This document shows positions 47,276 through 58,846 of a stretch of 64,000 nt of DNA, in pieces. The notes under the pieces were generated by a model. That model made no database searches. It was given only the letters and a program-made list of their open reading frames with translations, and had not been told where the DNA came from. How positions within the stretch are numbered: position 1 is the stretch's first letter; the number at the start of each line of letters is the position of its first letter. Source of the stretch: an uncultured Hyphomicrobiales bacterium (GTDB taxonomy: Bacteria > Pseudomonadota > Alphaproteobacteria > Rhizobiales > Xanthobacteraceae); assembly GCA_903878085.1 (NCBI GenBank), contig CAIRGJ010000064.1, positions 186,001 to 250,000 on the forward strand, written 5' to 3'. The position numbers and the translations under genes were made by a program.

Positions 47276-48901
47276 CTAAATCTCCTCCGGGACCATCGCA
47301 ATCGCGCCGCACGGGCATTCCTGGGCGCACACGCCGCAGCCCTTGCAATAGTCATAGTTGAATTGGAACCGCTGGCCGGGGCCGAGCTTGATCACCGCAT
47401 TATCCGGACACACGCCGTAACAATTGTCGCACTCAAAGCAATTGCCGCAGGACAGGCAGCGCCGTGCCTCGTAGAGCGCGTTGGTCTCGTCGAGCCCACC
47501 CTGCACCTCCTCGAAAGTGCTCTGCCGACGGGCGATTTCGAGCATCGGCCGCACCGTCTTCGGTGCGTCGGCGTAATACCAGGTATTGAGTTTATCGATG
47601 CCCGCCAGCTCGTGCCGTTCGGCCGGCGCATAGGCATCCCCGCGCAGCCAGGCATCGATGTGGCGGGCCGCCTTCTTGCCGTGACCGACCGCCACCGTGA
47701 CGGTACGTTCGGAGGGCACCATGTCGCCACCGGCGAAAATGCCGGCATGGCCGGTCATCATGTTCGGGGCGACAGTGACCACGCCGTCCTTGATTTCCAG
47801 CCCGGGCACGCCGTCGAGCAGCGACAGATCAACATCTTGGCCCAGCGCCAGCACCAGCGCATCGGTCTCCAGCGTCTCGAACTCACCGGTCGGCTGCGGG
47901 AAACCGGATTCGTCGAGTCGCATCTTTTCGACGGTGAGCGTGCCCTCGTCCATGCGTTTGATGGTCGAAAGCCATTTCATCATGATGCCTTCCTGCAGCG
48001 CCTCCTCGACCTCGAAGTCGTGCGCCGGCATGCGATCACGGGTGCGGCGATAGACGATGATCGCCTCGGTCGCGCCCAGCCGTTTGGCGGTGCGGGCAGC
48101 ATCGATGGCGGTGTTGCCGCCGCCGTAAACGACGACGCGCCGGCCAAGTAGCGGCTGGTCTTCGCCTTCCATCGACCGCAGCAAAGAGACGGCGTCGAGA
48201 ATTTTCGACGCGGAACCGGCCGGAATAAAAGAGCGTTTGCCGATATGAGCGCCGACCGCGAGGAATGCCGCATCGAAGCCGCCCTCCCGCATACTCTCGA
48301 CGATGCGGTCGACCTTGGTATCGAGCTTCATGACGACGCCGAGATCGATGATCCGGTTGATCTCGGCATCGAGGACGTCGCGCGGCAGACGATATTTCGG
48401 AATTCCGAAACGCATCATGCCGCCGGCAAACGGGCCGGCCTCCTGAATCTCAACCGCATGGCCCATCCGGCGCAAGTGATAGGCGGCGGACAGACCCGAA
48501 GGACCGGCGCCGACCACCAGCACCCGCTTGCCACTGTCGGCTTGCGGCGGCTCGAATCGCCAGCCGTTGCGGATCGCCACGTCACCAAGAAAACGCTCGA
48601 CGGAATTGATGCCGACCGCTTCGTCGACTTGCGCGCGATTGCAAGCGCCTTCGCAGGGGTGATAGCACACCCTGCCCATCACCGCCGGCAGCGGATTGTC
48701 GATCGTCAATGTGCGCCATGCGGATTCATAGTCGCCGGATTCGGCGTAATAGAGCCAACTCTGAATATTTTCGCCGGCCGGACAGGCGTTGTTGCAGGGC
48801 GGCAAACGATCGACATAGACCGGCCGCGAGGTGCGCCACGACCCCGTCAGATTGGCGAGGCTGCTGCCGACATCGAGACTGATTGCGAAGGGATGTTCCA
48901 T
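47276..48901 (-). CDS. GltD-like NAD(P)H oxidoreductase fused to a 2[4Fe-4S] ferredoxin
   Basis: A 541-residue electron-transfer protein. The N-terminus has the Cys motif CNNACPAGENIQSWL plus VCYHPCEGACNR, as in glutamate synthase small subunits. An FAD Rossmann site VLVVGAGPSGLSAAYHL (about 125) and an NAD(P) site VVVYGGGNTAIDAARTAK follow. The last 75 residues hold two ferredoxin clusters (CLSCGNCFECDNCYGVCP, then CKGCGVCAQECPCGA). It takes the place of the delta subunit of 2-oxoacid:ferredoxin oxidoreductase and would pass electrons to or from NAD(P). It overlaps the beta-subunit gene by one base (TGATG). A comparable partner is known for the Azoarcus 2-oxoglutarate:NADP oxidoreductase. 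Confidence 0.9.
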   Translation of the reverse strand: MEHPFAISLDVGSSLANLTGSWRTSRPVYVDRLPPCNNACPAGENIQSWLYYAESGDYESAWRTLTIDNPLPAVMGRVCYHPCEGACNRAQVDEAVGINSVERFLGDVAIRNGWRFEPPQADSGKRVLVVGAGPSGLSAAYHLRRMGHAVEIQEAGPFAGGMMRFGIPKYRLPRDVLDAEINRIIDLGVVMKLDTKVDRIVESMREGGFDAAFLAVGAHIGKRSFIPAGSASKILDAVSLLRSMEGEDQPLLGRRVVVYGGGNTAIDAARTAKRLGATEAIIVYRRTRDRMPAHDFEVEEALQEGIMMKWLSTIKRMDEGTLTVEKMRLDESGFPQPTGEFETLETDALVLALGQDVDLSLLDGVPGLEIKDGVVTVAPNMMTGHAGIFAGGDMVPSERTVTVAVGHGKKAARHIDAWLRGDAYAPAERHELAGIDKLNTWYYADAPKTVRPMLEIARRQSTFEEVQGGLDETNALYEARRCLSCGNCFECDNCYGVCPDNAVIKLGPGQRFQFNYDYCKGCGVCAQECPCGAIAMVPEEI

Positions 48902-49929
48902 CAGGCGTCGCCCTCCGCTTCAAGCAGATGGTATTCGGCGATGTTGCGGTCGGCCAACCCCTGCAGCCGGCCGATGCGCTCTCTCCCCTCTTCCGTGCTG
49001 AAGAGGTGGGCGAAGCGCCGCTGCGGTTTCAAGTAATCGTCGACGGGAACCCGGCGGCGGATCTTCTGGCTGCTGGTGACGACGCCGTGCTCAGCCTCGA
49101 ACAGCGGGAACAGGCCGCACTCGACCGCGAGCCGCGCCAGCCGAATCGTATCATGGGAGGCCGAACCCCAGCCGAGCGGGCAAGGCACATGGATTTGCAG
49201 ATAGCGCGCGCCATGAATGCCCATCGCCCTCATCACCTTGCGCTCAAGATCGTGCAGATCGGCGACCGTCGCCGTGGCCACATAGGGAATGCCGTGGGCG
49301 ACGGCGATCTTCGGCACGCTCTTGCCAGTGCCAAAAACATTGCCCGGCTCCGGTCCCATGGCCGGCGTCGTCGCGGTGCGGGCTCCCGGCGGCGTCGCCG
49401 ACGATCGCTGCACGCCGGTGTTCATGTAACCTTCGTTATCATAGCAGATATAGAGCACGTCATCGTTTCGCTCGAACATGCCCGACAGACAGCCGAAACC
49501 GATATCGGTGGTACCGCCATCGCCGCCTTGCGCAATCGCACGTACCTCGGACCGCCCTTTTACCCGCATTGCGGCTGCGACGCCGGTCGCGACCGCGGCG
49601 GCGTTGCCGAACAGCGAATGCAGCCACGGCGTCTGCCACGAGGTTTCCGGATAGGGCGTCGTGAACACTTCCAGGCAGCCGGTGGCGTTGACAGCGATCA
49701 CATTGCCGCCGGTCGCCCGCATCGCAGCGTCCATGGCGTAGCGCGCACCAAGCGCCTCACCACAGCCTTGGCAGGCGCGGTGTCCACAGGTGAGCGCATT
49801 GGAGCGGTCGGTCGATGCCTGCACCGCGCGGCGTTCGTCCGAAACGAGGCGATTGCCGACCGTGAACGTGCCTTTCTGATAGAAATGCAGTTTCTGCGTC
49901 GCGTCCAGCGTTGTTGTTTGCTCGTTCAC
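48901..49929 (-). CDS. porB: 2-oxoacid:ferredoxin oxidoreductase beta subunit
   Basis: A 342-residue thiamine-diphosphate subunit. The N-terminal CGHRACQGCGEALGARY carries cluster-ligating Cys. The ThDP-Mg site is GGDGGTTDIGFG with YDNEGYMNTGVQRS. It decarboxylates a 2-oxoacid to acyl-CoA with low-potential electrons, together with alpha and gamma. PorB-type sequences suggest pyruvate; 2-oxoglutarate or a branched oxoacid cannot be excluded. It lies 11 bp after the alpha gene. Confidence 0.92.
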   Translation of the reverse strand: MNEQTTTLDATQKLHFYQKGTFTVGNRLVSDERRAVQASTDRSNALTCGHRACQGCGEALGARYAMDAAMRATGGNVIAVNATGCLEVFTTPYPETSWQTPWLHSLFGNAAAVATGVAAAMRVKGRSEVRAIAQGGDGGTTDIGFGCLSGMFERNDDVLYICYDNEGYMNTGVQRSSATPPGARTATTPAMGPEPGNVFGTGKSVPKIAVAHGIPYVATATVADLHDLERKVMRAMGIHGARYLQIHVPCPLGWGSASHDTIRLARLAVECGLFPLFEAEHGVVTSSQKIRRRVPVDDYLKPQRRFAHLFSTEEGRERIGRLQGLADRNIAEYHLLEAEGDA

Positions 49930-49940
49930 CGGGCTTTCCT

Positions 49941-51215
49941 CTATACGGCGGTTTTGACAGCGGCCTCATCGGCGGCTTGGCCGAGACGGCGCAGCAGGTT
50001 TTCGGCGGTTGGACCCGAACGCCGCACCTTGCGAACGTAATGCAGCTCCTTGGCGACGATTTCCTCGTTGAGATCGAGAAAATGCGAGCCCTCCCATGGC
50101 TGCACCAAAGCGCGGCGCAACACGCGATGCAGCGACGTGCGGGTGATCGGGCGCCCGCCAAGCCCGGCGATGACCGAATGTACCTGCGGTGCGCCCGCTA
50201 CGTTGCGTAAGGCAAGATCGACATTATTGGCGAGCGGACCGCCCATGCCGACCGCCAAACTCTTCTCGATGACGACGACGTTGCGCGCGCGCACCAGCTT
50301 TTCGCGCAAAGCCTCTGTCGGAAACGGCCGGAACGACACCAGCGTGACGAGGCCGACGGACAGGCCGTCGGCGCGCATCTCATCGATCGTGTCTTTGATG
50401 GTGCCGTTCACCGAACCCATGGCGACGACGATCAATTCGGCATCGTCGGCACGGTAGGAACGCAAGAGCCCGCCGCTGTCGCGTCCAAATCGAGACTTGA
50501 AGTCTGCGGCATATTCGGGAATGAGCCGCAGCGCCAAGGTCTGCTTATAGTGTTGCAGATAACGAACTTCAGTGAAGGCATCCGGTCCGACCATCGCCCC
50601 GATTGAGATCGGGTCTTTTGGATCGAGCACTTGCACCGGTTCGTAGGACGGCAAATATGCATCGACATCGGCCTGCTCGGGAATGTCCACCTGTTCGACC
50701 GCATGCGTGAGGATGAAGCCATCGACGCAGACCATCACCGGCATCGACAACTCCTCAGCCAAGCGGAAAGCCTGGATATGCAGGTCGGCGGCTTCCTGGT
50801 TCGTTTCCGCGAACAACTGCATCCAGCCTGAATCGCATACCGCCATGGCGTCGGAATGGTCGTTCCAGATATTGATCGGCGCGCCGATTGCCCGGTTACC
50901 CAAGGTCATGACAATCGGCAGACCGAGACCGGAGGCGTTGTAGACGGCCTCCGCCATGTATAGCAGGCCTTGGCTGGCGGTGGCGGTATAGGCGCGCGCG
51001 CCGGCAGCGGACGCGCCGATCGCGACCGACAGAGCGGCAAATTCGGATTCGACGTTGATGAACTCGCAATTCTTGATTTCGCCGGTCCGCGCCATCTCGC
51101 CGAGACCCTCGACGATGTGGGTCTGCGGCGTGATCGGATAGGCGCAAATGACCTCGGGCCGACACAGCCCGATCGCCTCGGCCATTGCCCGTGAGCCTTC
51201 GATTTGTTTGAGCAT
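49941..51215 (-). CDS. porA: 2-oxoacid:ferredoxin oxidoreductase alpha subunit
   Basis: A 424-residue subunit with the pyrimidine-binding domain. Motifs: EVICAYPITPQTHIVEGL, EFINVESEFAALSVAIGASA, TATASQGLLYMAEAVYNASG and GNRAIGAPINIWNDHSD, then the C-terminal transketolase-like domain from about 260. It is 12 bp downstream of the gamma gene. Complete and of normal length. Confidence 0.93.
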   Translation of the reverse strand: MLKQIEGSRAMAEAIGLCRPEVICAYPITPQTHIVEGLGEMARTGEIKNCEFINVESEFAALSVAIGASAAGARAYTATASQGLLYMAEAVYNASGLGLPIVMTLGNRAIGAPINIWNDHSDAMAVCDSGWMQLFAETNQEAADLHIQAFRLAEELSMPVMVCVDGFILTHAVEQVDIPEQADVDAYLPSYEPVQVLDPKDPISIGAMVGPDAFTEVRYLQHYKQTLALRLIPEYAADFKSRFGRDSGGLLRSYRADDAELIVVAMGSVNGTIKDTIDEMRADGLSVGLVTLVSFRPFPTEALREKLVRARNVVVIEKSLAVGMGGPLANNVDLALRNVAGAPQVHSVIAGLGGRPITRTSLHRVLRRALVQPWEGSHFLDLNEEIVAKELHYVRKVRRSGPTAENLLRRLGQAADEAAVKTAV

Positions 51216-51227
51216 GGCGACGATCCT

Positions 51228-51800
51228 TCAGGCGGCTGCGCTGGCGGCGGCGACCGCGTCATATGCCGCAGTGGCGGCGGCGACATTCGCCTCAGCGATC
51301 TTTTCGCCAAATGCTTCGCGGATTGCTGCCGCGACCGATTTAAGTTGAACGATGCCGGAAAGACGGGCGAACGCGCCGAGTAGCGCTGCATTGGATAGTG
51401 GGCGCCCGATATGTTTGAGTGCGAGCTCGGATGCCGGAACGGTCAAGACGTGCCCAGCGGGCAATCGATTAGCAATGGCATCGAGATGCAGCTCGCTCAG
51501 ACTGCGGCTGCTGTTGACCAGCAGATAGCCTGTAGACTTCAAGCCCTGGCAAACGTCGATCGCCTTGAACAGCGTCGGGTCCTGGACGATCAGCGCGTCG
51601 GGTTCCAGGATAGGCTCGCGCAGCCGGATTTCCTTGTCGTCGATTCGGCAGAACGAAACCACCGGCGCGCCCATGCGCTCGGAGCCGAAGCTCGGAAAAG
51701 CCTGAGCGTGGCGCTGCTCAAGAAATGCGGCGACCGAGAGAAGCTCCGCCGCCGTCACTACGCCCTGACCGCCCCGGCCATGGAACCGCACCTGAAACAT
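51228..51800 (-). CDS. porG: 2-oxoacid:ferredoxin oxidoreductase gamma subunit
   Basis: A 190-residue subunit that binds CoA. It shows FHGRGGQGVVTAAELL at the N-terminus, FPSFGSERMGAPVVSFCRI and ALIVQDPTLF, followed by an Ala-rich C-terminus. First gene of the four-gene unit. Upstream, CTGGCA-AGC-TGCCAG (51828-51842) forms a small hairpin in the leader region. Confidence 0.92.
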   Translation of the reverse strand: MFQVRFHGRGGQGVVTAAELLSVAAFLEQRHAQAFPSFGSERMGAPVVSFCRIDDKEIRLREPILEPDALIVQDPTLFKAIDVCQGLKSTGYLLVNSSRSLSELHLDAIANRLPAGHVLTVPASELALKHIGRPLSNAALLGAFARLSGIVQLKSVAAAIREAFGEKIAEANVAAATAAYDAVAAASAAA

Positions 51801-52366: not shown

Positions 52367-55300
52367 TCACGATGTCACCACGTCGATCAGGGCGGCGCGC
52401 TGGTTAGACGTCATGGCGTCGATCTGAGTCTGCGCAAAAGCACTGCCCTGTGCCGCGGTCAAGGCGTGAATGTCGTTCGTGCTAATGCCTGCAATTGCCG
52501 CGGTGCTCAATGACGGAATACCGGTTGTTGCCGAGAGTGCCGAGAATTGCGTTGTCGTCAGGCCTGCGATTTGCGTGGACGTCAGCGCGCCGGCCTTGTC
52601 GGCAGCCAGATTGCCAAGTTCCGTCGTTGTGAACACTGCAGTCTGATCGGCCGTGAGGCTCGCAATCAAAGTTGCGGTAAGCGCACCGACTTGAGCTTCG
52701 GTCAACTGGCTGATCGCCGTTGTCGTCAGACCCGCGACCTGCGTCGTGCTAGCCTTGCTCACGTCCACTGCATCGAGCGCGTCGATGGACAGTGCGTTAA
52801 GCTGCGTGGTGGTCAGGCCCTGCACCTGATTCGTGCTGAGCGCGCCGAGTTGGTCGTTCGAGAACAAGCCGAGCGCCGTGGTTGTGAGCCCGCCGAGCTG
52901 CGTAGCCGACAGCGCGTCCGCCTGCGTGGTCGTGAACGCCTGCACCTCGGTCGAGGTGAGCACGGCGATCTGATCGGCCGAGAGGCTGAAAACCTGCGTT
53001 GCGGAGAACGCGCCAACCTGGGTTTGGGTCAACTGGCCGATCGCCGTCGTCGTCAGACCGGCGATCTGCGGCGTGCTGGCCTTGCTCACGTCCACCGCAT
53101 TGAGCATGTCGATGGACAGTGCGTTGAGCTGCGTAGTGGTTAGGCCCTGCAATTGGGTGGTGGAGAGTGCGTTGATCTGGTCGCTCGAGAACAAACCGAG
53201 CGCCGCGTTCGTGAGCCCGCCGAGCTGCGTGGACGTCAACCCGCCCGCTTGCGTGGCGGTGAAGTCCTGAACTTCGGTCGAAGTGAGCACCGCGATCTGA
53301 TCGGTCGAGAGGTTCGCAACCTGCGCTGCGGAGAACGCACCAATCTGGATGTTGGTCAACTGGCCGATCGCCGTCGTCGTCAGACCGGCGATCTGCGTCG
53401 TGCTGACCTTGCTCACGTCCACCGCATTGAGCGCGTCGATGGACAGTGCGTTGAGCTGCGTGGTTGTCAGGCTCTGCACCAGCGTGGTCGAAAGCGCATT
53501 GATCTGGTCACTTGAGAACAGCCCCAACGCGGCGGTGGTGAGATTGCCGAGCTGCTGCGCCGTCAACGCATTAACCTGAGTTGTGGTGAATGCCTGGACA
53601 TCCGTGGAGGTCAAGGCTCCAATCTGGACCGTGGATAGAAGTGCGATCTGTGACGAATTCAGCGCTCCAACTTGATCTTCGGTCAATGTCCCGATGGCTG
53701 TGGTGCTCAGCCCACGAATCTGATTCCAGGTCAGCTTGGTCGTATCGACCGCTTGGAACGCGTCGACGCCGATCGCGTTGAGCTGGGTCGTCGTCAGGCC
53801 TTGAACCTGGGTCGTGGTGAGTGCGTTGATCTGATCGCTCGAGAACAAGCCGAGCGCCGTGGTCGTGAGCCTGCCGAGTTGCGTAGCCGACAGCGCGTCC
53901 GCCTGCGTGGTCGTGAACGCCTGCACCTCGGTCGAGGTGAGCGCACCGATCTCGGTCGCCGTCAAAACGCCGGTCTGGGTGGAGCTCAGCGTGCCAACTT
54001 GGGCTTCGGTCAACTGACCGATCGCCGTCGTCGTCAGACTCGCGATCTGCGTCGTGGTCGCCTTCGTGAGGTCTACGGCATCCAGCGAGCCGACGGACAG
54101 CGCGTTGAGCTGGGCGGTGGTCAAGCTCTGAAGCTGGGTGGTGCTGAGCGCGCCGATCTGCGTGGTCGAGAAGTTGCCTAGCGCGGTGGTGGTCAGGCCG
54201 CCAAGCTGACTGGTGGTCAGCGCATTCGCCTGCGTGGTGGTGAGTGCCTGCACTTCGGTCGAGGTGAGCGCACCGATCTCGGTCGCCGTCAAAACGCCGA
54301 CCTGCGCGGCGTTCAGCGTACCCACCTGGGTCTCGGTCAGGTTGCCGATCGCCGTCGTCGTCAGACCCGCGATCTGCGTCGTGGTCGCCTTCGTGACGTC
54401 CACGGCATCCAGCGAGCCGACGGACAGCGCGTTGAGCTGGGCGGTGGTCAAGCTCTGAAGCTGGGTGGTGCTGAGCGCACCAATCTGGGTGCTTGAGAAA
54501 AGCCCCAGCGCCGTGGTCGTCAGGCCGCCAAGCTGACTGGTGGTCAGCGCATTCGCCTGCGTGGTGGTGAAGGCCTGCACTTCGGTCGACGTCAATGCAC
54601 CGATCTGGCCGGTACTAAGCAGGCCGACCTCGGTTGAATTCAGGGTGCCAACTTGGGCTTCGCTCAACTGACCAATAGCGGTGGTCGTCAGACCGACGAT
54701 CTGGGTCGTGGTGGCCTTCGTTAGGTCCACGGCATCCAGCGAGTCGACGGACAGCGCGTTGAGCTGGGTGGTGGTCAGACTCTGAAGCTGGGTGGTGCTA
54801 AGCGCGCCGATCTGGGTGCTTGAGAAAAGCCCCAGCGCGGTGGTGGTCAGGCCGCCAAGCTGCCTGGTGGTCAGCGCATTCGCCTGCGTGGTGGTGAACG
54901 CCTGCACCTCGGTCGACGTCAAGGCACCGATCTGCCCGGTGCTCAGCAGGCCGACCTCAGTGGAATTCAGCGTGCCAACCTGCGCCTGGGTCAGGTTGCC
55001 GATCGACGTCGTCGTCAGGCCAACGATCTGGGTCGTGGTGGCCTTCGTGAGGTCCACAGCATCCAGCGCGTCGGTGGAGAGTGCGTTGAGCTGGGTGGTG
55101 GTCAGGCTCTGAAGCTGGGTGGTGCTGAGTGCACCGATCTGGGTGGTCGAGAAGTTGCCTAGCGCCGTGGTGGTCAAGCCGCCAAGCTGTCGGGTGGTCA
55201 GCGCATTGGCCTGCGTGGTGGTGAGCGCCTGCACCTCGGTCGACGTGAACGCACCAATCTGCCCGGTGCTCAGCAGGGCGATCTGGGTGGAGGTCAGCGT

Positions 55301-57520
55301 CCCGACCTGGCTATCGGCCAAGTGACCAATCGCGGTCGTGGTGAGGCCGGTGAGCTGATTCGACGACAGCTTGGTCAGGTCAATGGCGTCGAGCACATCG
55401 CTGGACACCGCATTGAGCTGGGTGGTGGTCACGCTCTGAAGCTGGGTGGTGCTGAGTGCACTAATCTGCGTGGTCGAGAAGTTGCCGAGCGCGGTGGTGG
55501 TCAGGCCGCCAAGCTGCCTGGTGGTTAGCGCATTGGCCTGCGTGGTGGTGAACGCCTGCACCTCGGTCGAGGTGAGCGCACCGATCTCAGTCGCCGTCAA
55601 AACGCCGACCTGTGTGGAGGTCAGCGTGCCGACCTGAGTGGAGGTCAGGTTGCCGATCGCCGTGGTCGTCAGACCCGCGATTTGCGGCGTGGCAGCCTTC
55701 GTGAGGTCCACGGCATCCAGCGCGTCGACGGACAGTGCGTTGAGCTGGGTGGTGGTCAGGCTCTGAAGCTGGGTGGTGCTGAGCGCGCCGATCTGGGTGG
55801 TCGAGAAGTTGCCGAGCGCGGTGGTGGTCAGGCCGCCAAGCTGCCGGGTGGTCAGCGCATTGGCCTGCGTGGTGGTGAACGCCTGCACCTCGGTCGACGT
55901 CAAGGCGCCGATCTGCGCGGTGCTCAGCAGGCCGACCTCGGTCGAGCTCAGCGTGCCAACTTGGGCTTCGGTCAGGTTGACGATCGACGTCGTCGTCAAG
56001 CCAACGATCTGCGTCGTGGTGACCTTTGTGAGGTCCACGGCATCCAGCGCGTCGCTGGACAGTGCGTTGAGCTGGGTGGAGGTCAGGCCCTGAAGCTGGG
56101 TGGTGCTGAGCGCGCCGATCTGCGTGGTCGAGAAGTTGCCGAGCGCGGTGGTGGTCAAGCCGCCAAGCTGCCTGGCGGTCAGCGCATTGGCCTGCGTGGT
56201 GGTGAAGGCCTGGACTTGAGTCGAGGTCAGCGCACCGATCTCCGCGGTGCTCAGCAATCCAACCTGGGTCGACGTCAGCGTGCCAACCTGGCTGTCGGTC
56301 AGGTTGCCGATCGTGGTGGTCGTCAGGCCAACGATCTGCGTCGTGCTGGCCTTCGTGAGGTCCACGGCATCCAGCGCCGCAATGGATAGACTGTTGAACT
56401 GGGTCGTCGTCAGGCCCTGAAGCTGAGTGGTGCTGAGCGCGCCGATCTGCGTGGTCGAGAAATTACCGAGCGCAGTGGTAGTCAAGCCGCCAAGCTGCCT
56501 GGCGGTCAGCGCATTGGCCTGCGTGGTGGTGAAGGCCTGGACTTGGGTCGAGGTCAGCGCACCGATCTCAATTGCCGTCAAAACGCCGACCTGCGTGGAG
56601 GTCAGCGCGGCAACTTGGCTATCGGTCAAGTTGCCGACAGCGGTGCTCGTCAGGCCGGTGAGCTGGATGCTGGACAGCTTGGTGAGATCAATGGCGTCGA
56701 GCACATTGCTGGATACCGCATTGAGCTGGGCCGTCGTCAGGCCCTGAACTTGGGTAGCGCTGAACGCGCCAATCTGGGTGGTCGAAACATTGCCGAGCGC
56801 GGTTGTGGTGAGGCCGCCAAGCTGCCTGGAGGTTAGTGCATTGGCCTGCGTGGTGGTGAACGCTTGCACCTCGGTCGAAGTCAAAGCACCGATCTGCGCG
56901 GTGCCAAGCTGGCCGATCTGGGTGGAGGTCAGCGTACCGACCTGCGTCTGGGTCAGATTGCCGATCGACGAAGTGGTCAGACCCTTGAGCTGGACGACGG
57001 ACAGCTTGGTCAGGTCAAAGGCGCCGAGCACATCGCTGGACACCGCGTTGAGCTGGGTCGTCGTCAGGCCCTGTACCTGGGTAGTGCTGAGTGCGCCGAT
57101 CTGCGTGGTTGAAAAGTTGCCGAGCGCGGTGGAGGTCAGGCCGCCAAGCTGCCGGTCGGTCAGCGCATTGGTCTGCGTGGTGGTGAACGCCTGCACCTCG
57201 GTCGAGGTGAGCGCACCGATCTCAGTCGCCGTCAAAACGCCGACCTGCGCGGCGGTGAGCGCTGCAGTCTGGGTATCGAGGAAGGTCTGAATCTGGAGCG
57301 TGAGCAGGTGGCTGATGACGTTTGTCGAAAGCGCCGCGATCTGCGTCGTCGCCAGATACTGGAGGTCGGTGGACACCAATGCGTTGACTTGGGTCGAGCC
57401 CAACGCTGCGGCCTGCGTCGCAGCAAGAGACCCAATTTCTGTAGTCGAGAGACCAGCGATAGCGGTGGTGTTAAGCCGCGCGAGCTGTCTTAGGCTTAGC
57501 GAAGAAATGGTAAAAGGCAT
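52367..57520 (-). CDS. Giant octapeptide-repeat protein (1717 aa), function unknown
   Basis: One uninterrupted frame of 1717 codons. Almost the whole protein is an octad of the form [LF]-[ST]-[ST]-x-[QE]-[ILV]-x-[AGN]. Residues 104-1629 form 14 blocks, each exactly 109 residues: 13 octads plus a 5-residue insert reading V/I-D-L/V-T/S-K after the eighth octad. Residues 1-103 and 1630-1717 are less regular octads. The middle blocks are nearly identical; the last four form a subgroup with LGLFSSDQINAL and DVSK. No Cys, signal peptide, RTX nonapeptide or membrane span was seen. The [ST]xx[QE] pattern fits a helix N-cap; a solenoid is likely. Similar octad proteins in rhizobia are often labelled adhesin-like without proof. 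It stands alone beside mobile-element debris. Confidence 0.88.
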   Translation of the reverse strand: MPFTISSLSLRQLARLNTTAIAGLSTTEIGSLAATQAAALGSTQVNALVSTDLQYLATTQIAALSTNVISHLLTLQIQTFLDTQTAALTAAQVGVLTATEIGALTSTEVQAFTTTQTNALTDRQLGGLTSTALGNFSTTQIGALSTTQVQGLTTTQLNAVSSDVLGAFDLTKLSVVQLKGLTTSSIGNLTQTQVGTLTSTQIGQLGTAQIGALTSTEVQAFTTTQANALTSRQLGGLTTTALGNVSTTQIGAFSATQVQGLTTAQLNAVSSNVLDAIDLTKLSSIQLTGLTSTAVGNLTDSQVAALTSTQVGVLTAIEIGALTSTQVQAFTTTQANALTARQLGGLTTTALGNFSTTQIGALSTTQLQGLTTTQFNSLSIAALDAVDLTKASTTQIVGLTTTTIGNLTDSQVGTLTSTQVGLLSTAEIGALTSTQVQAFTTTQANALTARQLGGLTTTALGNFSTTQIGALSTTQLQGLTSTQLNALSSDALDAVDLTKVTTTQIVGLTTTSIVNLTEAQVGTLSSTEVGLLSTAQIGALTSTEVQAFTTTQANALTTRQLGGLTTTALGNFSTTQIGALSTTQLQSLTTTQLNALSVDALDAVDLTKAATPQIAGLTTTAIGNLTSTQVGTLTSTQVGVLTATEIGALTSTEVQAFTTTQANALTTRQLGGLTTTALGNFSTTQISALSTTQLQSVTTTQLNAVSSDVLDAIDLTKLSSNQLTGLTTTAIGHLADSQVGTLTSTQIALLSTGQIGAFTSTEVQALTTTQANALTTRQLGGLTTTALGNFSTTQIGALSTTQLQSLTTTQLNALSTDALDAVDLTKATTTQIVGLTTTSIGNLTQAQVGTLNSTEVGLLSTGQIGALTSTEVQAFTTTQANALTTRQLGGLTTTALGLFSSTQIGALSTTQLQSLTTTQLNALSVDSLDAVDLTKATTTQIVGLTTTAIGQLSEAQVGTLNSTEVGLLSTGQIGALTSTEVQAFTTTQANALTTSQLGGLTTTALGLFSSTQIGALSTTQLQSLTTAQLNALSVGSLDAVDVTKATTTQIAGLTTTAIGNLTETQVGTLNAAQVGVLTATEIGALTSTEVQALTTTQANALTTSQLGGLTTTALGNFSTTQIGALSTTQLQSLTTAQLNALSVGSLDAVDLTKATTTQIASLTTTAIGQLTEAQVGTLSSTQTGVLTATEIGALTSTEVQAFTTTQADALSATQLGRLTTTALGLFSSDQINALTTTQVQGLTTTQLNAIGVDAFQAVDTTKLTWNQIRGLSTTAIGTLTEDQVGALNSSQIALLSTVQIGALTSTDVQAFTTTQVNALTAQQLGNLTTAALGLFSSDQINALSTTLVQSLTTTQLNALSIDALNAVDVSKVSTTQIAGLTTTAIGQLTNIQIGAFSAAQVANLSTDQIAVLTSTEVQDFTATQAGGLTSTQLGGLTNAALGLFSSDQINALSTTQLQGLTTTQLNALSIDMLNAVDVSKASTPQIAGLTTTAIGQLTQTQVGAFSATQVFSLSADQIAVLTSTEVQAFTTTQADALSATQLGGLTTTALGLFSNDQLGALSTNQVQGLTTTQLNALSIDALDAVDVSKASTTQVAGLTTTAISQLTEAQVGALTATLIASLTADQTAVFTTTELGNLAADKAGALTSTQIAGLTTTQFSALSATTGIPSLSTAAIAGISTNDIHALTAAQGSAFAQTQIDAMTSNQRAALIDVVTS
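52634..57211 (-). repeat. Tandem array, 14 units of 327 bp
   Basis: The coding repeat of the giant gene at DNA level: 14 consecutive units of 327 bp with no length variation, running from codon 104 to codon 1629. Units 3-10 (numbered from the N-terminus) are closest; units 11-14 are the most diverged. Conserved length with graded divergence suggests growth by unequal crossing-over under strong phase constraint. Confidence 0.85.
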
Positions 57521-57784: not shown

Positions 57785-57912
57785 TCGCCCTATCCGGTCA
57801 GAAACGCGCGCGACCTTGATTGAGGCAATCGCACGGGGTGCGGCGCTGGCTGGACGAGATCATCATCGATCCGCAAGCGACAGCTGAGACGATTGCCGAG
57901 CGCGCGAGCTGC
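57785..57912 (+). pseudogene. Serine recombinase C-terminal fragment
   Basis: Two frames together read ETRATLIEAIARG and then RRWLDEIIIDPQATAETIAE, a segment found near the C-terminus of large serine (resolvase-type) recombinases of Bradyrhizobium, where it is followed by CSVRKVNMTISLAFLAP. Here there is a frame break near 57839 and the similarity stops at about 57905. No catalytic domain is present. It is a relic. Confidence 0.6.
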
Positions 57913-58095
57913 AGAGTTTATGCGACGAGCTGCTGAACGGAGAAATCTTCTCGGCCTGAAAGAAGCGCAGATTGTCATCGAGCAATGGCGGAAGCACGAC
58001 AACACGATCAGACCGCACTCCGAACTCAATTGCAGGCAGCCGGCGTCGCAGACACTTACACCTTTGGCCCATCATCGGGATGGTGATCATCGCAA
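57911..58095 (+). pseudogene. IS3-family transposase OrfB C-terminal fragment
   Basis: Reads DELLNGEIF in one frame and then LKEAQIVIEQWRKHDNTIRP in another, followed by HSELNCRQPASQTLTPLAH. In intact IS3-family OrfB this is the end of the DDE domain (GEIFYSLKEAQ, IRPHSSLGYRPPAP). A small deletion near 57945 breaks the frame. It joins directly to the recombinase relic. Together with the OrfA fragment at 1041 it is of the same IS type and strand. Confidence 0.75.
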
Positions 58096-58159
58096 TGCGG
58101 TAATCTCAAATCCGCCGGTTCAAAAAAACCGTCAGATCAATCTTTGCCAGCGTGGAAAA

Positions 58160-58846
58160 CTATTCCGATAGCAAGTGGATGACTTCCGCCGCAGCTTGAG
58201 CCGTCTCTTCACGTGCCAATTTTTCCGCCAGCATCGCGTCGCCCGCTTTGATCGCGGCAAACATTGCCCGCAGTGAACGCACGCTTTCGCGCGAACGTCT
58301 CGGCGAACGTTTCGGATGGCTCAGTCCGAGAGCGCGCCAGCGCCAAATCCGCGCATGCAGGATCGAAATCATTGAGGACAGCGATTCACTGTCGGCGCCC
58401 GCCACCAATGCATCGTAGAAACTGTTCTTGGCTTGTAGAATCGCCGCAGGATCGCCGGCCCCATAACAGCGGGCCACTTCTTCCAGTGCTAGCCGCAAGG
58501 TCTTGAGTTGGTCCGGCTTGGCGTTAACGACGAAGAGCCGCGCAGCTAAGCCGACCAGTACCTCGCGAATGGCATAAAGGTCCTTGGCCTCACCGGCGCT
58601 GAGTTCGCGCACCACCGGGCCTTTATTGGCAATCGTCGCCACCAGCCCCTCGGTCTCAAGCTGGCGCAGCGCCTCGCGGATGACCGTGCGCGACACATCC
58701 ATCATTTCGATCAGTTCACGTTCGACCAGCCGGGAGCCCGGCGCGAGCCTTCCTGAAATGATCGACTGTCGCAGGAAATCCAAAACTTGATGGCGCAACG
58801 GCGCTGCCGGCTGGCGGATGATCGACGTGGGGCTGGCCTCAAGCAT
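58160..58846 (-). CDS. GntR family regulator (FadR/FCD subfamily)
   Basis: A 228-residue regulator; ATG 58846 follows GGAGCAA. Winged helix at about 16-80 (LVERELIEMMDVSRTVIREAL, then LETEGLVATIANKGPVV) and an FCD effector domain at about 88-220, where metal and carboxylate ligands are expected (FYDALVAGADSES, then MFAAIKAGDAMLAEKLAR). It is divergent from the dehydrogenase cluster and probably represses it. The candidate operator at 58871-58894 lies 25 bp from its start. Confidence 0.92.
   Translation of the reverse strand: MLEASPTSIIRQPAAPLRHQVLDFLRQSIISGRLAPGSRLVERELIEMMDVSRTVIREALRQLETEGLVATIANKGPVVRELSAGEAKDLYAIREVLVGLAARLFVVNAKPDQLKTLRLALEEVARCYGAGDPAAILQAKNSFYDALVAGADSESLSSMISILHARIWRWRALGLSHPKRSPRRSRESVRSLRAMFAAIKAGDAMLAEKLAREETAQAAAEVIHLLSE

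Follow-up and report, generated by a model that had tools for sequence, protein, structure and literature searches.

A 109-residue block array in an ALTTAQ octad-repeat gene, and a candidate glycosylation and export system linked to its family

Gram-positive serine-rich repeat glycoproteins combine Ser-rich repeats with a dedicated glycosyltransferase and a dedicated exporter; they leave the cell by accessory Sec export and carry a wall anchor. In the account given in PMC3983070, HMW1C of Haemophilus influenzae is a cytoplasmic GT41-family enzyme which modifies a giant exoprotein before export; it has no TPR fold and modifies Asn, and the export of HMW1A takes place through Sec and the TpsB pore. 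The functions of bacterial OGT orthologues are described as largely unexplored (PMC4683255). The repeat gene considered here lies in a 64,000-nucleotide stretch of contig CAIRGJ010000064.1 from an uncultured Hyphomicrobiales bacterium (the window); L numbers denote loci and G numbers genomes, G000 being the source genome and L033 the window gene. Reading across from a paralogue and from relatives, we find it somewhat probable that the encoded protein is a multiply O-glycosylated surface or matrix protein exported by a type I secretion system (T1SS).

The gene (52367..57520, minus strand) is an intact reading frame of 1717 codons with an ATG start, and its 1717-residue product (about 173 kDa, computed pI 4.05) contains no cysteine. 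The N-terminal 103 residues (57212..57520, minus strand) are octads without the 109-residue period. There follows an array of 14 blocks of 109 residues, or 327 nt (52634..57211, minus strand), and then 88 C-terminal residues (52370..52633, minus strand) made up of octads and a predicted final helix of about 12 residues. The first of the 14 five-residue inserts occupies residues 168-172 (57005..57019, minus strand), the next ones recur every 327 nt, and the last, at 52754-52768 on the same strand, ends the series; they read VDLTK in six blocks, VDVSK in three, IDLTK in two, and FDLTK, VDVTK and VDTTK in one each. A sequence-only reading of this DNA had put the layout at 103 + 14 x 109 + 88 = 1717 residues with 13 octads and one insert to a block, and cutting the protein at those points bears this out exactly, without indels and in all 14 blocks. 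The protein matches itself with an identity of 0.72 at a lag of 109 and 0.34 at a lag of 8; for either lag, 500 residue shuffles average 0.12 and do not exceed 0.14. TRF reports a 327-nt array of 13.8 copies. The octad motif proposed in that reading has a limit: in its strict form it fits only 59 of the 182 block octads, and S/T at position 2 with Q/E at position 5 holds for 130. Among the same 182 octads, Ser or Thr is found at position 2 in 96%, at position 3 in 76% and at position 4 in 68%; 75% have Q or E at position 5, and about 91% have L, I or V at position 6. Over the whole protein 537 of 1717 residues (31%) are Ser or Thr, densest at octad positions 2-4. Both ends are of types common to many relatives, M..ISSLs..Q at the N-terminus and F..xQI..Ms..Q..A at the C-terminus, and the N-terminal 103 residues are 73% and 66% identical to those of the related genes L030 and L034, respectively.

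The window gene evolves under purifying selection: pN is smaller than pS in all 91 block pairs, and comparison with the 1717-residue congener gene L030 gives uncorrected differences of pS 0.52 and pN 0.20. The division of the source assembly into 64 contigs and the 4.6-kb length of the array lend something to the idea that the repeat was collapsed, expanded or made chimeric in assembly. Against this, no two blocks are identical (the best pair reaches 89% in nucleotides), the excess of pS extends to every pair, and the 109-residue period recurs in the single-contig congener G011, in genes of 14 and of 23 blocks. That recurrence makes a collapsed or chimeric assembly unlikely, and we regard an artefact as very improbable, the number 14 itself being that of the assembly.

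The two genes of congener G011, which is assembled as one contig, are L030, with 1717 residues, 14 blocks and 68.4% ungapped identity to the window protein, and L029, with 2697 residues and 23 blocks. A Xanthobacteraceae MAG carries a gene of 13 blocks (L034), locus L035 and the fragment L031 also show the lag of 109, and the short paralogue in the source genome contains one block. The sequence-only reading had proposed a comparison of unit number between close strains; among these relatives the number differs by whole blocks (1, 13, 14 and 23), and every block spacing measured in the 109-block genes is exactly 109. Between the two 14-block genes, blocks of the same index have a mean identity of 0.68 as against 0.62 for blocks of other index; position-by-position orthology is weak, as expected if blocks turn over inside a gene. 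The 109-residue block is the amplification unit of this lineage, and its number changes by whole blocks, probably through recombination. In other lineages the best lags are multiples of 8 (136, 192, 216, 272, 328, 352 and others), from which the five-residue phase break is taken to be a lineage trait, propagated by whole-block duplication and inherited with the block, and no general need of the fold.

The protein is assigned by sequence to Pfam family PF20080 (ALTTAQ), which it matches with 614 bits over the whole protein (E 1e-189, 60 matched stretches; curated cut-off 26.4 bits). The Pfam unit has 38 positions and a name that gives no function, and among the sequences compared here the higher-order block of 109 residues with its insert is confined to this genus and to two MAG loci, L034 and L035. 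Weak Pfam matches to DUF4351, Gp5_trimer_C, DUF7443 and others were taken as matches to repeat composition. A relative with a solved structure is chain A (120 residues) of PDB entry 9zem, 'HeliScrew4', with a sequence match of E 2e-10 over 108 residues and an octad register like that of the window protein across them. In the printed alignment the HeliScrew4 octads mostly have P and then E/D at positions 3-4, where the window protein mostly has T-T, and HeliScrew4 therefore has fewer Ser/Thr. The sequence-only reading had named a match to a well-described octad family of known structure as something that would refute it; this is partly the case, because PF20080 was already named and the 9zem chain is solved. 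No paper on ALTTAQ, PF20080 or HeliScrew was found in the open-licence PMC literature, than which print coverage is wider.

AF2 models were made for residues 1-430 (17 alignment rows) and 1413-1717 (10 rows) from alignments of the window protein with related proteins, and have mean pLDDT values of 92.6 and 93.7. Both are predicted to consist wholly of short helices, with about one helix of 5-6 residues per octad, beginning past the S/T of position 2, and no strand; in the modelled blocks the insert forms a three-residue helical turn, and at the C-terminus comes a longer helix, about 12 residues in length. The earlier guess at a chain of short helices with [ST]xx[QE] capping, in place of a beta-solenoid, agrees with both predictions. 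Foldseek searches of the PDB (copy to April 2026) with both models gave no convincing relative: in both searches the ten rows with the best E-values, which include mesothelin and LegL7, have a query TM of at most 0.30, and 9zem is not among the 50 rows listed in either. Nothing better than the PDB rows came from the viral library.

Gene labels point in another direction. The ALTTAQ gene is called 'ICE nucleation protein' in Cereibacter sphaeroides 2.4.1 and 'heme utilization protein' in other strains (L206, L201), and some relatives bear the label 'large exoprotein involved in heme utilization or adhesion'. Such names would suit a beta-solenoid exoprotein of the filamentous haemagglutinin, ice-binding or haem-adhesin kind. 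Pfam lists no two-partner-secretion domain in the window protein, and both AF2 models, at pLDDT above 92, are short-helical throughout and contain no parallel beta coils; on these models the beta-solenoid, haem or ice-protein reading was rejected as barely credible, and the labels 'ICE nucleation protein' and 'heme utilization protein' look wrong for a repeat of predicted short helices.

ALTTAQ is rare: PF20080 occurs in six of 289 genomes of the class and four of 60 relatives, the source genome being counted in both, and 59 of 72,556 plasmid records match the window protein (tblastn). The source genome has a second, 302-residue ALTTAQ gene on contig 55 (L009:9512-10420), and directly after it lies a gene with TPR and Glyco_transf_41 domains (L009:10585-12642), whose best PDB matches are OGT (294 bits), XcOGT (273 bits) and SPINDLY (171 bits). 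Flanks were read for 40 ALTTAQ loci (two from the source genome, four from relatives, 16 from a scan of genome contigs, seven from the class sample, two found via GT41 and nine from named plasmids), with a reach that varies from less than 1 kb (downstream in L034, and at the contig ends in L031, L048 and L049) to about 12 kb. An OGT-like GT41 gene lies within about 10 kb, and often next door, in 26 of the 40: L009, L029, L032, L036-L039, L044, L045 (counted through L192, at the opposite end of its contig), L047-L049, L108, L110, L111, L188, L193 and L198-L206. Two of these, L188 and L193, were found through a GT41 query, and leaving both aside gives 24 of 38. A single species contributes two strains, L201 and L206, and L197, which repeats L110, was left out of the count. 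At L108 two same-strand ALTTAQ genes flank one GT41 gene.

No nearby GT41 was found in the other 14 loci (L030, L031, the window locus L033, L034, L035, L040-L043, L046, L109 and L112-L114), and for 10 of these 14 a GT41 of the clade described below is present elsewhere in the genome (G000, G011, G349, G354, G355, G356, G357, G360, G262 and G234). A clade GT41 was not found in the ALTTAQ-bearing genomes G009 and G348; in G200, also ALTTAQ-positive, the Pfam search gave no GT41, and G099, likewise positive, has GT41s. At L114 a 1741-residue protein with protein kinase, AAA ATPase, GAF and histidine kinase ATPase domains is encoded directly upstream of a solo ALTTAQ gene (L114:2274-7499), and at L112 an HlyD-type adaptor and an MFS pump lie downstream of another (L112:12644-15489).

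GT41 of any kind is present in 106 of the 289 class genomes, so that mere co-occurrence says little, and the argument is carried by neighbourhood and by clade. Among the 60 relatives, including the source genome, a GT41 scoring above 640 bits to the L009 enzyme is found in three of the four ALTTAQ-positive genomes (1580, 1069 and 746 bits) and in none of the 56 negative ones; the other 17 genomes with a GT41 match reach at most 366 bits. Three of 29 class GT41 loci, which cover 30 of the 106 GT41-positive genomes, exceed 640 bits; all three belong to ALTTAQ genomes and adjoin the repeat gene or lie close to it, and the remainder score up to 358 bits. Since a second branch of the clade scores 282-411 bits, score alone is no clade marker, and trees were used. 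The careful tree places 15 of 16 linked GT41s in one clade with support of 99/97 (bootstrap 99), against 45 unlinked ones. In a quick tree of 73 rows, from which six unlinked rows that were long-branched or weak second frames had been left out (45 reduced to 39), 28 of 29 linked GT41s fall in one clade (SH-aLRT 99) together with none of the 39 unlinked rows. There the GT41 of L206 lies inside the clade and that of G348 outside; without these two the figure is 27 of 28 (SH-aLRT 100). The exception is the linked GT41 of the Verrucomicrobia locus L049, which lies outside. Linked rows are genes and not loci, L110, L111 and L200 giving two each, and at each of these three loci the two enzymes come one from each of two subclades. 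Also in the clade are the G355 enzyme and three GT41s of Rubrivivax type, each at the head of a T1SS operon; of the clade's 32 sampled members, 28 have an ALTTAQ gene beside them, in a sample picked partly by that neighbourhood. Unlinked rows were screened for octads within their own loci (about 1.5 kb each side), two of them, L051 and L156, come from ALTTAQ-positive genomes, and the trees did not include the GT41s of G099 or the two other GT41s of G011.

The stretches around the human OGT active site, which have catalytic roles there, are kept in the alignment of the L009-clade enzyme, and sugar-nucleotide genes lie near several loci. Both observations argue against the reading in which the GT41 is a real functional partner of the repeat without glycosylating it, as a chaperone-like TPR protein or as an enzyme for some other nearby target. 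That reading draws on the little-explored functions of bacterial OGTs and on the Thermobaculum terrenum OGT, whose in vitro activity is given as undetectable (PMC4683255), and we consider it distinctly unlikely.

Of the 40 ALTTAQ loci, 11 have a T1SS (HlyD and ABC, with TolC in two cases) within about 10 kb: L045/L192, L048, L049, L110, L111, L188, L200, L201, L202, L205 and L206. These 11 span Alpha-, Beta- and Gammaproteobacteria and a Verrucomicrobia MAG. Near six of the 11 there are sugar-nucleotide genes: an epimerase (L110, L111), UDP-glucuronate decarboxylase (L200), gmd (L205) and dTDP-rhamnose genes (L201, L206). Three Rubrivivax-type genomes have a GT41-ABC-HlyD operon on a stretch (L189-L191) that lacks the repeat gene. 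Where GT41 and T1SS accompany the repeat gene, type I secretion is, on gene content, the likely export route for that part of the loci. At L200 (Pseudoroseomonas cervicalis pL11-A), the GT41 and T1SS genes are accompanied by genes for FkbM and other methyltransferases and by a sigma-54 regulator, and a sigma-54 regulator also follows the ALTTAQ gene at L110.

The sequence-only reading had suggested a look for secretion genes outside the window, and the source genome does contain, away from the window gene, a PrtD-type T1SS ABC (758 bits) and an HlyD (396 bits), both over curated cut-offs; on two Pseudomonas plasmids, the T1SS ABC beside the ALTTAQ gene scores 464 and 498 bits to this PrtD. The PrtD pump occurs also in the ALTTAQ-negative congeners G003 and G004, and was not over cut-off in the ALTTAQ-positive G009, G045, G099, G200 and G262; it is therefore not specific. 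G000, G009 and G011 yielded no C39-like ABC of the kind seen at the linked loci, the best matches there being partial (30-33%), with 38 candidates scored per genome (in G000, 38 of 121, best partial match 33%). In the 30 genomes searched, a C39-like ABC above 450 bits occurs in five of nine ALTTAQ-positive and three of 21 negative ones. Because both pump types occur also without ALTTAQ, the PrtD pump of the source genome is put forward as a possible exporter and nothing firmer. The N-terminus of the window protein is an ordinary octad run with nothing like a cleavable signal by eye, in agreement with the earlier claim and as fits a T1SS substrate; no T1SS genes were found beside the gene. The acidity of the protein and its lack of cysteine likewise favour export, and at the C-terminus, where a T1SS substrate would have its uncleaved signal, there are the shared end motif and the predicted final helix. 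The Pfam scan of the protein gave no RTX family, and RTX calcium-binding nonapeptides are not obligatory for T1SS substrates.

The immediate surroundings of the window gene are of a different kind. An IS integrase-core relic (rve_3, C-terminal part only; 57893..58171, plus strand; E 9e-6 and 25.8 bits, just under the Pfam cut-off of 26.5), a neighbour and not part of the system, sits between the repeat gene and a GntR regulator, and on the other side the repeat gene adjoins a cluster of 2-oxoacid:ferredoxin oxidoreductase type (47276-51800, minus strand; POR, POR_N, TPP enzyme and FAD/4Fe-4S subunit). This matches the earlier description of a gene standing alone by IS relics, and no export or glycosylation gene was found beside it. 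A phage or viral origin was rejected: the window protein has no match in 50,697 phage records (tblastn), and of 14 stretches of viral contigs that matched a pattern none was confirmed. A look for an empty site speaks neither for nor against an insertion: seven flank proteins have no match in five related ALTTAQ loci, and among 35 relatives the two flank proteins are both well matched, besides the source genome, only in G018, on separate contigs.

These surroundings bear on the strongest of the rivals, in which the window gene is a solo ALTTAQ copy that has departed from the GT41/T1SS system, encoding an unmodified rod that is intracellular or otherwise exported, serves, for instance, as a scaffold or size ruler, and differs in role from its linked relatives. 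No GT41 or T1SS was found beside the 109-block genes L033, L030, L034 and L035, of which the last three are the nearest relatives of the window gene (L034 reaching only 0.8 kb downstream), the genome of L034 has no clade GT41, and other solo copies (L112, L114, L109) adjoin unrelated genes. Yet of the four genomes in which 109-block genes stand solo, three (G000, G011 and G349) carry a clade GT41 beside a second ALTTAQ gene (in G349 with a frame that is broken in that MAG), so that action in trans is possible, and the Ser/Thr octad positions are kept in the window protein. We judge the solo role rather unlikely.

The reading that we prefer for the window protein, by way of its paralogue and relatives, is a glycosylated and exported rod. 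One short capped helix for every eight residues would stack into a long, screw-like rod, setting the Ser/Thr of octad positions 2-4 at fixed steps. A TPR-plus-GT41 enzyme of the OGT/SPINDLY-like clade would glycosylate many of these residues in the cytoplasm; in G000 this would be the clade GT41 beside the short paralogue on another contig, acting in trans on the window protein. A T1SS would then export the protein in one step, with no signal peptide, to the surface or the medium, where it may form a glycosylated coat, an adhesin or a matrix fibre. The octad fold, with one helix per eight residues and Ser/Thr at fixed places, would offer sugars a regular lattice and be of interest as a scaffold in protein design. 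For the little-explored bacterial OGT-like enzymes, the ALTTAQ neighbours of the GT41 clade are a concrete candidate substrate, and a tractable strain is at hand in Cereibacter sphaeroides 2.4.1, whose plasmid pA has the repeat gene, GT41, ABC and HlyD together; the control genome of Caulobacter vibrioides contains both ALTTAQ and GT41.

More widely, we see an even chance that ALTTAQ, its own GT41 clade and the linked T1SS make up one undescribed glycoprotein-export system of Alpha-, Beta- and Gammaproteobacteria, and perhaps Verrucomicrobia. Such a system would parallel, in Gram-negative bacteria, that of the serine-rich repeat glycoproteins, whose enzymes and hosts are different. Its regular rod for glycan display would have a new class of fold, in which every eight residues form one tiny helix. 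No paper joining an O-GlcNAc transferase and a type I secretion system was found in the open-licence PMC literature. The likeness to HMW1A-HMW1B-HMW1C, as set out in PMC3983070, lies in the pairing of a GT41-family enzyme with a giant exoprotein, which on the ALTTAQ side, too, would be modified in the cytoplasm before export. The window protein has no TPS domain by Pfam, and no TpsB is labelled in the nine annotated plasmid ALTTAQ regions. In contrast to HMW1, the ALTTAQ-linked enzyme has TPRs and an OGT-type domain, for which Ser/Thr would be expected, and the pump near 11 of the 40 loci is a T1SS. OGT and SPINDLY are the best PDB matches of the clade GT41, from which they differ in that the bacterial clade is tied by neighbourhood to one repeat family.
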